Assembly (NCBI GenBank): GCA_019721075.1
Contig: JAHEAD010000006.1
Span: forward strand, 1 to 64,000
Length of the DNA stretch: 64,000 bases
Source: Candidatus Sysuiplasma jiujiangense
Lineage (GTDB): Archaea; Thermoplasmatota; Thermoplasmata; Sysuiplasmatales; Sysuiplasmataceae
Direction: 5' to 3'
The notes under the pieces are model-generated. The model worked only from the letters and a program-made list of their open reading frames with translations. It was not told the DNA's origin and searched no databases. The position numbers and the translations under genes were made by a program. Shown here in pieces: positions 57,867 to 64,000 of this stretch (positions within the stretch are counted from its first letter, which is position 1; the number at the start of each line of letters is the position of its first letter).

Positions 57867-59225
57867 ATGTCTGTAAGACGGGTAATAATAATTGGCGGGG
57901 ATGCAGCCGGAATGAGCGCTGCATCCAGGGTAAGGAAACGGCTGCCGGATGCGGAGGTTGTTGTTTATGAGGCCGGAGGGTATGTCTCATATTCCGCGTG
58001 CGGCATGCCATTCCATGTGGCAGGCGTTGTCAGTGAATTCGCCAGCCTGCTGCACTATCCGGTGGAAAAATTTGAAAAGGAGCGGAGGATCCAAATCAGG
58101 CTGCACAGCAGGGTCACGGAAATAGACACGGAAAAGAAGGTGATCAGGTTTCTCAGCAACGGTGTCCCGGAGCAGGACCATTTTGACAGACTTATTATTG
58201 CTACGGGCGCCAGCCCGAAGGTACCGCCTGATCTTGCGGGACTGAATGCTGTAAGGACTCTCCGCACGTTAAACGACCTTGATGCATTCGAAGAACTCGC
58301 AAACCGTGCTTCGCACATCACGATTGTCGGCGCAGGCTATATCGGCCTTGAACTCTCCGAATCCTTCAGGATGCTTGGTAAAGATGTAAGGATTCTTCAG
58401 AGGTCTGACAGAATACTGAGGGGATACGATGCCGAACTGTCAAAGCAGATCGTCGACGAGGTTGTCGGCAACGGGATTCGCATCGATTTCAAAACCGAAA
58501 TTGAAAAGGTCGAGGAACGCGGAACTGCCGTCCGTATCCGGACGAAGGACGGGAGCGAATTTGACACAGACATGATTGTTGCTGCGACCGGTGTTACGCC
58601 CAACAGTGCGCTGGCTTCCTCGGCGGGCATTGCGCTCGGCGCTTCCGGCGCAATCAGGGTCAATGAATATATGGAAACCAGTGCTCCGGGAATTTTTGCC
58701 GCAGGGGACGTTGCAACAACTTTCAATATGATTACAGGTGAAAGCATTTACATGCCTCTGGCTACGGGCTCCAACAAGTCGGGCAGGGTTGCCGGGGAGA
58801 ATGCGGCGGGGGGAAGGGTAAGGTGGTCAGGTGTTGCAGGTACTGAAGTGGTAAAGGTCTTTTCGCTTGAAGTGGGGCGCACAGGAATTGATGAGAATGA
58901 GGCGGTGTCGCACGGATTCGAACCTGTTTCATCGACGATAACATCCACAACACGATCTGCATATTATCCGGGCGCAGGCCCGCTGACAATACGGCTGATG
59001 GCGGACAGGAAGTCGCACAGATTTCTGGGTGGCAACATCATCGGGAAGGAGGGGGTAGCAAAGAGGCTGGACGTCCTTGCAACCGCAATAGCAGCAGGCA
59101 TGACGGTGGATCAGCTGGTGACTGTGGATTATTCGTATTCACCTCCCTTTGCGCCCGCCTGGGAACCCATCGGAGTGGCAGCCGATGTTCTGTCGGGCAA
59201 GCTGCACGATCAAGCGGCTGGCTGA
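57867..59225 (+). CDS. CoA-disulfide reductase / NAD(P)H oxidase-like flavoprotein
   Basis: This 452-residue pyridine-nucleotide disulfide oxidoreductase has FAD-binding VIIIGGDAAGMSAASRVRK, a single redox cysteine (C45 in YSACGMPF), NAD(P)-binding ITIVGAGYIGLELSESF and FAD motif PGIFAAGDVATTF. The single Cys is typical of the CoADR/NADH oxidase/persulfide reductase branch, not of glutathione reductases. It would reduce CoA disulfide or polysulfide, or oxygen. No rhodanese domain is fused. Confidence 0.9.
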   Translation: MSVRRVIIIGGDAAGMSAASRVRKRLPDAEVVVYEAGGYVSYSACGMPFHVAGVVSEFASLLHYPVEKFEKERRIQIRLHSRVTEIDTEKKVIRFLSNGVPEQDHFDRLIIATGASPKVPPDLAGLNAVRTLRTLNDLDAFEELANRASHITIVGAGYIGLELSESFRMLGKDVRILQRSDRILRGYDAELSKQIVDEVVGNGIRIDFKTEIEKVEERGTAVRIRTKDGSEFDTDMIVAATGVTPNSALASSAGIALGASGAIRVNEYMETSAPGIFAAGDVATTFNMITGESIYMPLATGSNKSGRVAGENAAGGRVRWSGVAGTEVVKVFSLEVGRTGIDENEAVSHGFEPVSSTITSTTRSAYYPGAGPLTIRLMADRKSHRFLGGNIIGKEGVAKRLDVLATAIAAGMTVDQLVTVDYSYSPPFAPAWEPIGVAADVLSGKLHDQAAG

Positions 59226-59350: not shown

Positions 59351-59848
59351 GTGAAACGAGAAAGAAAGGCGTTGGAAATAACTTCATTGTTGAATATCCT
59401 AGGAGGAAAGACGGTACGCATCATAAGTTCCCGGCATCTGCTCAGGCTGGTTAAATTTTCGATATCAGGCACAACCGGCTTTCTTGCTTTCGAATTCATA
59501 CTTGTCGCGGGCCTGGCTGTTTATGGCGTCACTCACATTCTGGCCGTTGACGCTGCCGCATGGATTGTCGGAACATCCGTCGCTTTTTTTGCGGATGAAT
59601 ACTGGACATTCCACAACAGGAGCCGGATACAATCCGGAAACCTGTCGGCACTTTTATACAGACTTGGTCTTTTCCAGCTTGCCAGTTCACTTACAAATGC
59701 GATCGTGATATTCTGCCAGCTTCTGCTTCTGTTTTCATTCGGACTACCTGCTTTTGCAGGAACGGCTTTGGGAGGAGCACTGACGTTTCCGCTCAGCTAC
59801 AGACTGAGCGAATCGGTTGTATGGAAGGCGATCCTGCAGGGCCAGTAA
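59351..59848 (+). CDS. GtrA-like membrane protein
   Basis: The 165-residue protein has four hydrophobic segments (about residues 34-55, 65-85, 110-130 and 135-155) and the RLVKFSISGTTGFLAFEFIL opening, followed by the DEYWTFHNRS motif between helices, typical of GtrA/DPMS-like proteins. These proteins are linked to export of lipid-linked sugars or flippase activity. The nearby secreted protein might be a glycosylation client, but this is only proximity. The GTG start at 59351 is weakly supported. Confidence 0.85.
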   Translation: MKRERKALEITSLLNILGGKTVRIISSRHLLRLVKFSISGTTGFLAFEFILVAGLAVYGVTHILAVDAAAWIVGTSVAFFADEYWTFHNRSRIQSGNLSALLYRLGLFQLASSLTNAIVIFCQLLLLFSFGLPAFAGTALGGALTFPLSYRLSESVVWKAILQGQ

Positions 59849-59991: not shown

Positions 59992-60975
59992 TCATCCTCT
60001 TTCTGCAGAATAGATGTGGCGTCTCATATCCCTGTGATCAGGCGTTTTTCTGACGAAGCCATTGCCAATCAGATAGGCAATGGCCTTCTGGACTGTTCTT
60101 CGCTGAAGACCCGTTATAGACATCATTCTGGTCTGATCCATTGAGCCGTGTGTTTGCAGAACGTGATAGATGAAGAGTGCAGCCGGACTGGCGCCCTGCA
60201 CAGGATTTTCCACGAGGGCGCCAAGCGTGTCTCCCCTAAGACCCAGTCTCTGTGTGGCAAGAGCCCCAATGCTTTCCGCTGAGACATTGCCGAGATTTAC
60301 CTTCGGACCAAGCTTCAGGATGAGTTCAGTCTGCTGTCTTTCCTGTGGGGCTTCAAACATAAGTTTGTCTTCAGGACATGAATCTCTGATCCTCTCCACC
60401 CAGTCCCATTTTATCTCACCGCTGTCATCATAGATTTCCACGCTCCTTCCGGTTTCTCTTCCCTCTATGATGACGAGATCACCGCCCAAATCCATCATTT
60501 GTGAAATGCGGTCAATAGTCTCCTCCAGGCTGAGCTGACTTTTCGGATTTTTTCTTCCAACTTCGGTATGCAGCCTCAACCCCGATGATCTGACAAATTC
60601 CGCGATCTCCCTCTTTATGTGGCGCGGTATCTCCACAACCCCTTCGCTGAGCTCAATCGTGTCAAAGCCAACGCGTGCGATGCCGTCAAGGGCCTTCATG
60701 TATTTGCCCTTCGACACCGCTATTTCGAGCATCGTGCCGCCGCTGGAAACAGTTACTCCCGCCTTTTTGAAAGACTCTATTCTGGAGCGGAGCGTTTCTT
60801 CATCAAGGATATAAGAGAGTCCCCATCCGATTTTCACACAATCGACAAAGCCGTGAAGCATGCGGACAGAGTCTACAGTTCCCTGAAGATATCTGTCAAG
60901 CACCATTGTTTTTCCTGCTGACCTAGCACCATCCAAGCATGGGATTTCGGTGATTTCAGCCAAAAAATACGACAA
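59992..60975 (-). CDS. Phosphosulfolactate-synthase-like (ComA) protein fused to a winged helix
   Basis: Residues about 1-255 form a ComA-like TIM barrel (MVLDRYLQGTVDSVRMLHGF, VDCVKIGWG, HTEVGRKNP, IIEGRETGRS and PKVNLGNVSAESI). ComA adds sulfite to phosphoenolpyruvate, giving phosphosulfolactate, the first step of coenzyme M synthesis; homologues occur in non-methanogens. Residues about 258-327 form an added winged-helix-like domain (SITGLQRRTVQKAIAYLIGNGFVRK, then a short wing). TTG 60975 is set by TATA spacing. It is divergent from the APS-reductase-type cysH, which may be its target. Confidence 0.85.
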   Translation of the reverse strand: MSYFLAEITEIPCLDGARSAGKTMVLDRYLQGTVDSVRMLHGFVDCVKIGWGLSYILDEETLRSRIESFKKAGVTVSSGGTMLEIAVSKGKYMKALDGIARVGFDTIELSEGVVEIPRHIKREIAEFVRSSGLRLHTEVGRKNPKSQLSLEETIDRISQMMDLGGDLVIIEGRETGRSVEIYDDSGEIKWDWVERIRDSCPEDKLMFEAPQERQQTELILKLGPKVNLGNVSAESIGALATQRLGLRGDTLGALVENPVQGASPAALFIYHVLQTHGSMDQTRMMSITGLQRRTVQKAIAYLIGNGFVRKTPDHRDMRRHIYSAERG

Positions 60976-61113
60976 TAATTCACCAGTTTATGCTATAATA
61001 TATGAATTTAAGAACCTTTGTATTCGAATAAATGAACATAATTATTCATATTACAAGCTATTTTTACGCATTCTGTATCTGTTATATATGGCCGTTTTTG
61101 TTCCAAATTGGAC
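60976..61113. promoter_or_regulatory. Divergent promoters of comA-like and cysH with palindromes
   Basis: On the minus strand ATATATTATAG (60993-61003) lies about 24 nt from TTG 60975. On the plus strand TTATATATG (61082-61090) lies about 28 nt from ATG 61114. Both suggest leaderless transcripts. Between them are a perfect 10-bp palindrome TATTCGAATA (61021-61030) and a dyad ATGAA-N8-TTCAT (61032-61049), good candidates for a shared operator. Confidence 0.55.
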
Positions 61114-61827
61114 ATGGAAAAGACAAAATTCGCCGGAAAAGAAGAGAATATGGATGCGCTTGCTCTGCTTAAGTGGGCCGACAGGGAATACGGACCGGAT
61201 GCAGTGTTTGCATGCAGCTTTGGTGCAGAGGATATGGTGATATTTGACATGCTGGCTTGCCTTCAGTCTCGCATCCTGATTGTCACTCTGGATACTGGAA
61301 GACTTAATCAGGAAACCTACAACCTCATCGAAGAGGTGCGTAAACGTTACGGCATAGGTATACAGCACATATACCCTGATCAGGACGAGCTCGGAAGCAT
61401 GGTTTCCGAACATGGGCCAAACCTGTTCTTTGAATCAGTGGAGAAGAGGAGGATGTGCTGCCATGTTAGAAAAGTTGCACCTCTGAACAGACTGCTCTCC
61501 GGAAAGAAAGCATGGGTTACCGGAATCAGGAGGGATCAGCTGTTCACCAGATCAAATTCTGCGAAGGTGCAGGAAGATCATGAAAGGGGAGGCATTGCAA
61601 AAATCGCGCCGCTGGCAGACTGGACCTACGAAATGGTGTGGAAATACATCAGAGAAAAAGGCATTCCGTACAACAGGCTCTTTGACAGGGGTTACACGAG
61701 CATCGGCTGTGAACCCTGCACCCGTGCCGTAAAGGCTGGTGAAGATCCGAGGGCAGGAAGATGGTACTGGGAAGCAGGCATAAAGGAATGCGGACTGCAT
61801 CATGCTGCGATGACCGGAAAGGAGTAG
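61114..61827 (+). CDS. cysH: CysH-family APS/PAPS reductase with Fe-S cysteines
   Basis: This 237-residue PP-loop reductase converts adenylyl- or 3'-phosphoadenylyl-sulfate to sulfite with thioredoxin. It has ACSFGAEDMVIFDML, LDTGRLNQETY, the CC pair (115-116 in RRMCCHVRK), C199-x2-C202 (GCEPCTR) and the catalytic C226 in KECGLH. The two Cys pairs ligate a [4Fe-4S] cluster, the mark of APS reductases rather than cluster-free PAPS reductases. Siroheme for the subsequent sulfite reductase could come from the SUMT operon. A GTCCGGC hairpin follows. Confidence 0.93.
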   Translation: MEKTKFAGKEENMDALALLKWADREYGPDAVFACSFGAEDMVIFDMLACLQSRILIVTLDTGRLNQETYNLIEEVRKRYGIGIQHIYPDQDELGSMVSEHGPNLFFESVEKRRMCCHVRKVAPLNRLLSGKKAWVTGIRRDQLFTRSNSAKVQEDHERGGIAKIAPLADWTYEMVWKYIREKGIPYNRLFDRGYTSIGCEPCTRAVKAGEDPRAGRWYWEAGIKECGLHHAAMTGKE

Positions 61828-62650: not shown

Positions 62651-64000
62651 TCAGATTTCTGTCTGTCTGAAGGAGTGCAGGAGAGCGGTTGAGCCCTGCA
62701 GGGCAGCTATGAGCTTTGCCGTTCCGACTGTGTTCAGTGCTCTCCTCATGTCATAAGCAATCATGGTCAGGCCAAGTTCACCTTTGACCTTCCTCAGTCC
62801 CTTCAGCAGCAGATAACCCTGATTGAACGCCCTCTTCATCGTTCCAAAAGGATGCTCAGACAGCTCCTTTCTCTTCCAGAGCTTCTCTCTGCCTTCCGCA
62901 GTCATCATCCTTGAATCCATTTCCTCGACTATCTCCTGGTGCTCCCATCTGTAGATGCGCCTGCCTCTACTGCTTGTTGTGCAGGCAGTCATATGGTATA
63001 GGCAGGACTCGCAGGGTGCATGTCCGTATATGAGAAAACGCTTGTTCTTCCAATGGCCATCGCACATGTACGTGAGTTTTTCGCCTGCCGGACAGGTGTA
63101 TGTGTTTGTGCAGCGGTCATAGACGAATCTGTCCTCACGGAAGCCCGGCCCGGGTATGCCCCTCCTTGCAGCGATCCCTCCCGGAGCACCATGCCTGGGA
63201 ACCGACGGCCTGATGCCGTTGTCGACACATTCCTTCAGCTGCAACACGTCGAAATATCCCTTGTCGGCCACAACCTCCAGACCTGATGCATCCAGTGCTT
63301 CGCCGGCGCCTGTTGCAACAGAAGCGAGCATGCCGTAATCGGTCGGGTTGTTTGTTGCATCATATTCAGCTATGAGCTTATGCTTCGAATCGACAGCAGT
63401 CTGTACATTGTAACAGACATCCAGACCATGCCTGGTCCTCATCAGCCTGCTTTCAGTGTCTGTGAGCGATATCTCTGTCTTTCCTGTCTCCTCCATTTCC
63501 CTGAGCATCCTCTCATAGTCCGCCTTTCTCTGCTTCGCCTTCTCTATCTTCTCCTTCAGAGACTGTCTGTTCAGCGAGTCTTCATCTGTGCTTTCCTGGC
63601 TGTCACGCTCATCCATCTCCTTCATGTACCTGCTTATGGAGGCGTCCACACGCTCTATCCTGTCCTGCAGCTTCTCCCTGTTGACATTCCTCTCCTTCGA
63701 GTTGACTGCCCTGAACTTCGAGCCGTCTATGGAAATGAGCTCCTTGCCGAACAGGCCAATGTCATCACAGAGCTTGACGAACGCCCTGAATACCCTCTTT
63801 ATGCACTCCGCGTTGTCCTTCCTGAAGTCAGCTATCGTCTTGAAGTCGGGCCTGAGCTTCTTCATGAGCCACATGACCTCCACGTTCCTTGAGCATTCAG
63901 CCTCCAGCTTCCTGCTGGAGCGTCTCTGGTTGAGATAGCCGTAGATGTACAGCTTGAGCAAATCGGCGGGATTGTAAGGCGGCCTGCACGTCTCACCGGG
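62651..64000 (-). CDS. IS1182-family DDE transposase, N-terminus beyond the window
   Basis: The minus-strand frame is open past the window edge (reading PYNPADLLKLYIYGYLNQRRSS at its visible start, the IS1182 N-terminal region). It contains ISIDGSKFRAVNS with the first Asp, VVADKGYFD with the second, and LSEHPFGTMKRAF with the Glu, so the DDE triad is complete. A charged insert (residues about 100-160, RDSQESTDEDSLNRQSLKEK) separates the first two. At least 449 residues are visible without interruption, so it may be active. Confidence 0.93.
   Translation of the reverse strand, partial: PGETCRPPYNPADLLKLYIYGYLNQRRSSRKLEAECSRNVEVMWLMKKLRPDFKTIADFRKDNAECIKRVFRAFVKLCDDIGLFGKELISIDGSKFRAVNSKERNVNREKLQDRIERVDASISRYMKEMDERDSQESTDEDSLNRQSLKEKIEKAKQRKADYERMLREMEETGKTEISLTDTESRLMRTRHGLDVCYNVQTAVDSKHKLIAEYDATNNPTDYGMLASVATGAGEALDASGLEVVADKGYFDVLQLKECVDNGIRPSVPRHGAPGGIAARRGIPGPGFREDRFVYDRCTNTYTCPAGEKLTYMCDGHWKNKRFLIYGHAPCESCLYHMTACTTSSRGRRIYRWEHQEIVEEMDSRMMTAEGREKLWKRKELSEHPFGTMKRAFNQGYLLLKGLRKVKGELGLTMIAYDMRRALNTVGTAKLIAALQGSTALLHSFRQTEI

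Follow-up and report, generated by a model that had tools for sequence, protein, structure and literature searches.

The window, that is, the whole stretch of 64,000 nucleotides of Candidatus Sysuiplasma jiujiangense DNA that was analysed, contains two divergent genes, comA-wH and cysH, whose reading frames lie 138 bp apart (Table 1). The initial annotation had set comA-wH opposite a sulfate-reduction gene, and this divergence is real: the neighbor is a cysH of the APS-reductase type, scoring 251.6 bits against TIGR02055 (cut-off 235.3) and containing CCHVRK and GCEPC in its translation. Downstream of cysH lies a DDE transposase gene (PF13751/DUF772; 62651-63961, minus strand). The sat gene is on a different contig in this genome; in the Thermoplasmatales sat follows cysH. 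Near the sulfur locus there is also a gene for a CoA-disulfide-reductase-like FAD oxidoreductase (57867-59225; 423.7 bits, under the equivalog cut-off), after which comes a GtrA-like membrane protein (59351-59848).

Table 1. Features of the comA-wH/cysH locus, in positions of the window
Feature	Position	Strand	Description
comA-wH	59992..60975	-	327 aa, TTG start; phosphosulfolactate-synthase-like TIM barrel with C-terminal winged helix
MarR-like winged-helix domain	60001..60189	-	Residues 263-325; recognition helix 292-304, wing 308-324
ComA TIM-barrel domain	60220..60924	-	Residues 18-252; K142 aligned with MjComA K137
TATA-like element of comA-wH	60994..61009	-	AAATTCATATATTATA on the minus strand, ~25 bp upstream of TTG; same place in relatives
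Perfect palindrome TATTCGAATA	61021..61030	.	Present; not conserved in relatives
Central dyad TAAATGA-N10-TCATATT	61029..61052	.	24 bp; by position, degenerate counterpart of the conserved candidate operator of relatives
TATA-like element of cysH	61083..61089	+	TATATAT, 25-31 bp upstream of ATG
cysH, APS-reductase type, divergent partner	61114..61827	+	TIGR02055 over cut-off; CC...CxxC cysteines

The open reading frame, Pfam and an AlphaFold2 model agree with the initial annotation on the coordinates of comA-wH and on its architecture of a ComA-like barrel fused to a winged helix. The Pfam ComA match (PF02679) spans residues 18-249 with an E value of 2e-65 and 220.9 bits against a gathering score of 25.2, and the protein falls under the curated cut-off of the arch_ComA equivalog TIGR03849, which represents the coenzyme M type (227.8 vs 280 bits). 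The C-terminal 60-odd residues of the full-length protein give weak matches to MarR, HTH_36 and TrmB; with the MarR profile the whole protein reaches 21.1 bits (cut-off 24.6) and the isolated C-terminal domain 25.1, and this region scanned alone exceeds the Pfam gathering scores of both MarR and HTH_36. The AlphaFold2 model, built from an alignment of 36 natural fusion sequences, has a mean pLDDT of 91.4, with the wing domain at 89-97 except for the final residues. It predicts a barrel at about residues 20-250, a short low-confidence linker (252-256) and then a winged helix, with helices at 264-276, 281-288 and 292-304 and strands at 308-312 and 320-324, in the order helix-helix-recognition helix-strand-strand wing. 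Foldseek matches the whole model to MjComA 1QWG (E 2e-24) and to the Bacillus subtilis protein 1U83. A second model of the wing alone (pLDDT 91.3) finds its best matches among MarR proteins, including DNA-bound MarR and HpaR, so that the C-terminal region is predicted to fold as the winged helix that had been proposed. The N- and C-terminal dimerization helices of MarR are absent from ComA-wH, the chain of which stops just past the wing.

The fusion extends far beyond the window. ComA was found in 91 of the 400 Thermoplasmata genomes sampled, and 84 of the 87 distinct ComA loci examined with their flanks encode the same tail of ~75 residues; the other three comprise two stand-alone ComA genes and one match cut by a contig end. 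Stand-alone ComA proteins that have no winged helix are encoded at L011 (G004, a genome of the same family) and at L047/L048 (G089 and G061, family f23), all distant from the fusion clade and with no cysH nearby. The wing residues R292, T294, Q296, D316, R318 and Y322 are invariant among the 84 fusion loci. A contig scan with a single ComA-wH protein as query gave no matches; with the full fusion alignment as query, 148 loci were confirmed across the 84,980 species genomes scanned. The best 80 of these 148 include Ferroplasma acidarmanus Fer1, Cuniculiplasma sp., 'Candidatus Sysuiplasma superficiale', the complete genome ASS_A1 and five Thaumarchaeota/Nitrososphaerales metagenome-assembled genomes (MAGs). 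That the fusion might be unique to the window MAG, or an assembly artefact, is thus ruled out. Maximum-likelihood phylogeny groups the fusions on a single long-stemmed branch (100/100) that excludes MjComA and BsComA. Two main sub-branches with moderate support are found within it, one mostly linked to cysH and the other comprising family f9 and two Thaumarchaeota; the f9 genomes G188 and G256 have one copy from each.

The linkage of the fusion with cysH, which the initial annotation regarded, along with a conserved sequence, as potential support for regulation, proved to be conserved. A CysH cluster is present in 35 loci of the first set, always on the opposite strand and directly upstream of comA-wH, with sat next after cysH in 30 of them, and the set of named genomes exhibits the same cysH arrangement. 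Among fusion-bearing genomes, cysH is linked in 4/4 of the window genus, 29/31 of family f17 and 6/48 of f9; most f9 fusions are unlinked, and cysH was not detected in 31/48 f9 genomes. A survey of the whole Ferroplasma family (77 genomes), with true cysH defined by E below 1e-20, found cysH and the fusion together in 36 genomes, the fusion only in 1, cysH only in 0 and neither in 40, a co-occurrence for which Fisher's p is 3e-21, uncorrected for kinship. The two genes are divergently adjacent in 35 of the 36 genomes that have both. Both states are found within several genera (e.g., g29, g41, g76 and g93), which implies that the two genes were gained or lost together more than once. In G409 (C1:88392-89934) there are in-frame stops in comA-wH and in the adjacent divergent cysH, which suggests joint decay of the two genes.

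Loci that have no neighboring cysH often carry another sulfur gene: an Ssu transporter, sat/cysC or UDP-sulfoquinovose synthase. In two Thaumarchaeota MAGs (L158:3210-5836 and L161:3-1768) an operon for an SsuABC-like aliphatic-sulfonate ABC transporter, with SsuA over its cut-off, is divergent from the fusion. UDP-sulfoquinovose synthase, with SQD1 as best PDB match, is encoded near the fusion in an archaeon MAG (over cut-off) and in a Nitrososphaerales MAG (just under); in the latter (L142:7534-9819) the gene carries an in-frame interruption at about residues 145-495, an intein-like insert with LAGLIDADG. At the archaeon MAG locus L136:3270-5861 the synthase is accompanied by a gene, directly divergent from comA-wH, for a YeiH-family putative sulfate exporter, which is a weak NCBIfam match and is over the Pfam cut-off. 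The f9 genome UBA184 (L194:2522-7900) encodes in a row on one strand a type I phosphodiesterase, cysC (APS kinase), sat (ATP sulfurylase), comA-wH and a short-chain dehydrogenase, where the phosphodiesterase might stand in for the ComB phosphatase that is missing from f9. A sulfur neighbor was not found at L125/L167 and L102/L141. Sulfite is the product of CysH, is freed from sulfonates and is consumed by SQD1, and it is also a substrate of ComA.

The initial annotation described a perfect palindrome and a dyad between the two TATA-like elements. Both exist, the dyad being ATGAA-N8-TTCAT at 61032-61049, inside the central element of Table 1, and the distance of ~25 bp from each TATA-like element to its start codon would fit leaderless archaeal genes. 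Conservation of the palindromes, on which the initial annotation made its reading depend, is seen only in part. TATTCGAATA occurs once in the window against 0.03 expected; some perfect 10-bp palindrome arises in 34.5% of shuffles of the AT-rich 138-bp region, and TATTCGAATA is found in 0/42 of the other homologous intergenic regions, an absence that rules it out as the operator. What is conserved is a different repeat near the second dyad, with its position kept in most relatives.

This repeat emerged from 43 distinct divergent intergenic regions, the length of which is near-constant within each clade: nine genomes from four genera have 129-131 bp, and other clades have 127, 103, 111-113 and 136-138 bp. 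A palindromic EM search over spacings gave a sharp peak at the inverted repeat wATRYGMA-N5-TKCRYATw, with a best score of ~60 vs 18 +/- 2.4 (maximum 24.9) in 112 shuffles, uncorrected for kinship. A motif trained on clade C recognized sites in 15/28 held-out regions at p<=0.035, and in 8 of these 15 the best site is near the midpoint between the starts (L019, L116, L124, L126, L146, L155, L157 and L111); in several other held-out regions it lies near 34 bp from comA. The distance from the strong central sites to the start of cysH is 55 or 66-74 bp. In G115 and G278 the strict palindrome and the relaxed pattern are each found once per whole genome, at the comA-wH/cysH locus, and this pattern search suggests that in the clade with AATATGAAACAGTTTCATATT the locus is the only genomic site. 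By generic palindromicity, the central peak is strong in clade C alone and is not outstanding elsewhere. A clear site was missing from the held-out motif scan of L017/L098 (Ferroplasma type), L072/L110 and L114, and the Ferroplasma-type regions scanned with that motif did not show the same operator. A single canonical operator is rejected for the window, where the N5 site is not significant with the held-out clade C motif (p=0.48). The central dyad of the window is centered 73 bp from the cysH start and 65 bp from the comA start. Each of three congeners has two dyads, one centered ~70 bp and the other ~103 bp from cysH; it is the latter that overlaps the TATA region of comA. The window counterparts lie at 73 and 102 bp with longer spacers, and dyad spacing varies within the genus.

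For the catalytic site, an alignment of 92 fusions with MjComA and BsComA was examined in MjComA numbering. K137, E79, E103, S105, E133, E168, G173, P207 and N227 are retained in 99-100% of the fusions, and the wider set of E79, E103, S105, E133, G135, K137, E168, R170, E171, G173, E205, P207, Q212, N224, N227, R240 and R244 in 96-100%. Lys137, which we take to be the catalytic residue of MjComA, corresponds to K142 of the window protein and is invariant across the 92 fusions. The comparison with MjComA that the initial annotation had recommended therefore gives a match, K142 included, and because the catalytic set is kept across the fusions, the enzyme site is under full constraint. The fusions depart from the canonical synthases in having LGN instead of LAN in every case and a new IKWDW stretch. 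From these residues we infer that the barrel of ComA-wH would be an intact phosphosulfolactate synthase able to bind sulfite and phosphoenolpyruvate (PEP) and to catalyze their reaction.

We consider it likely that ComA-wH is a one-component transcription regulator of sulfur assimilation of the trigger-enzyme type, a reading advanced in the initial annotation for which the linkage, co-occurrence, inverted repeat and catalytic residues provide good comparative support. By sequence and model, the protein joins an intact catalytic domain to a domain of DNA-binding type, the pairing by which trigger enzymes are recognized. In the proposed mechanism the N-terminal barrel would bind sulfite and PEP, and paired MarR-like wings would bind the inverted repeat between the comA-wH promoter and the divergent promoter of cysH, or of cysH-sat in the Thermoplasmatales. 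Sulfite produced by CysH, or phosphosulfolactate, would alter DNA binding and so set the level of cysH-sat expression; low sulfite would lead to activation of cysH, together with autorepression of comA-wH. The binding of the wing to the repeat, its control by barrel ligands and the regulatory sign are all putative steps of this model. Archaeal activators usually bind upstream of the TATA element. The central repeat precedes the cysH start by 55-74 bp and lies upstream of both TATA elements, and this placement, with the second dyad over the comA TATA in the window genus, makes us lean toward cysH activation and autorepression. The regulatory sign is the least certain step, and repression of both promoters by the protein is almost equally probable. 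More tentatively, with the chances a little below even, the synthase may gauge sulfite by running its own reaction with PEP, or by initiating it, the wing controlling sulfate reduction, sulfonate uptake or sulfolipid synthesis depending on the lineage, which would couple sulfur uptake to the status of both sulfite and PEP (carbon).

As a counterpoint to regulation, ComA-wH could simply be a catalytically competent enzyme controlled through the position of its gene beside cysH. A related scenario, which we regard as rather unlikely, is a bifunctional protein that is mainly an enzyme, converting sulfite from CysH to phosphosulfolactate and then sulfolactate, as a solute or for overflow or detoxification, with a winged helix that merely autoregulates. 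The intact catalytic residues agree with it, as do the ComB-family phosphatase in 35/35 of the f1/f17 genomes tested and the phosphodiesterase/phosphatase and short-chain dehydrogenase that flank the gene in some f9 loci. However, relatives that lack both the fusion and cysH have ComB just as often, so that it is untied to the fusion, and f9 has no ComB. The common neighbors, moreover, are genes of sulfur acquisition rather than of a sulfolactate pathway, and the shared motif lies midway between both genes instead of solely at the comA promoter. It is quite unlikely that ComA-wH is purely a sensor, in which the barrel would bind PEP and sulfite as the ligand-binding domain of a regulator, with catalysis lost or barely used. 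Although the score under the arch_ComA cut-off, the well-supported long-stemmed branch and the LGN and IKWDW changes could all reflect such a shift, the whole conserved catalytic set, needless for a sensor alone, has been kept. That the winged helix serves oligomerization or protein contact rather than DNA binding, with cysH adjacency reflecting a co-inherited metabolic module, would fit the several clades with no clear operator and the weak site of the window, but is highly improbable given the conserved basic recognition helix (RRTVQ) and wing (D..RRR.Y), structural neighbors that are MarR-DNA complexes, the strictly divergent orientation with clade-specific intergenic length, and the conserved inverted repeat. 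Coenzyme M biosynthesis was rejected as the function, as the arch_ComA cut-off is missed and the ComB of the window genome is found also in relatives lacking any ComA.

The ComA-wH protein of many acid-loving archaea is thus probably, judging from comparative genomics, an unrecognized switch, one half of which is an enzyme that senses sulfite and the other half of which sets sulfur uptake. If true, this regulator would account for the 'coenzyme M' gene of many acidophiles that are not methanogens, in which comA-wH may be labeled by annotation pipelines as coenzyme M biosynthesis. The fusion occurs in cultivated archaea (Ferroplasma acidarmanus), so both halves are open to direct testing. To our knowledge, there is no transcription factor that detects sulfite by means of an enzyme that can consume it. 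In the open-licence literature searched, we found no trigger enzyme or enzyme-like one-component regulator built on ComA or sensing sulfite/PEP, and no regulator described for assimilatory sulfate reduction in the Thermoplasmata. A survey of fusion proteins in archaea, dated 2024, makes no mention of a ComA-winged-helix fusion (PMC11237513).

ComA-wH shares with ComA (PF02679; MjComA 1QWG and B. subtilis YitD 1U83) the same barrel, 36% identity and the catalytic residues including Lys137. The known members are single-domain enzymes for coenzyme M or sulfolactate, whereas ComA-wH adds a winged helix and is tied to sulfur assimilation. With MarR-type regulators (MarR 5H3R, YusO 1S3J and the archaeal AF HTH regulator 1SFX) it has in common the predicted wing fold (TM 0.80-0.83 by query length), an inverted-repeat candidate operator and the divergent gene arrangement; unlike them, it has a TIM-barrel enzyme in place of the ligand and dimerization part. 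The bacterial regulators of sulfur assimilation CysB/Cbl (LysR) and CymR (Rrf2) sense O-acetylserine/APS or CysK; they act on the same pathway but are unrelated to ComA-wH in sequence and architecture. One-component regulators that combine an enzyme with a winged helix are already known; the open-licence literature yielded no example built on phosphosulfolactate synthase. Trigger enzymes and enzyme-like one-component regulators include BirA, PutA and the HTH-phosphoribosyltransferase regulators. Like these, ComA-wH unites a metabolic enzyme domain with a DNA-binding domain, and where trigger enzymes control the genes of their own pathway, ComA-wH would, by its gene context, do the same for sulfur assimilation.
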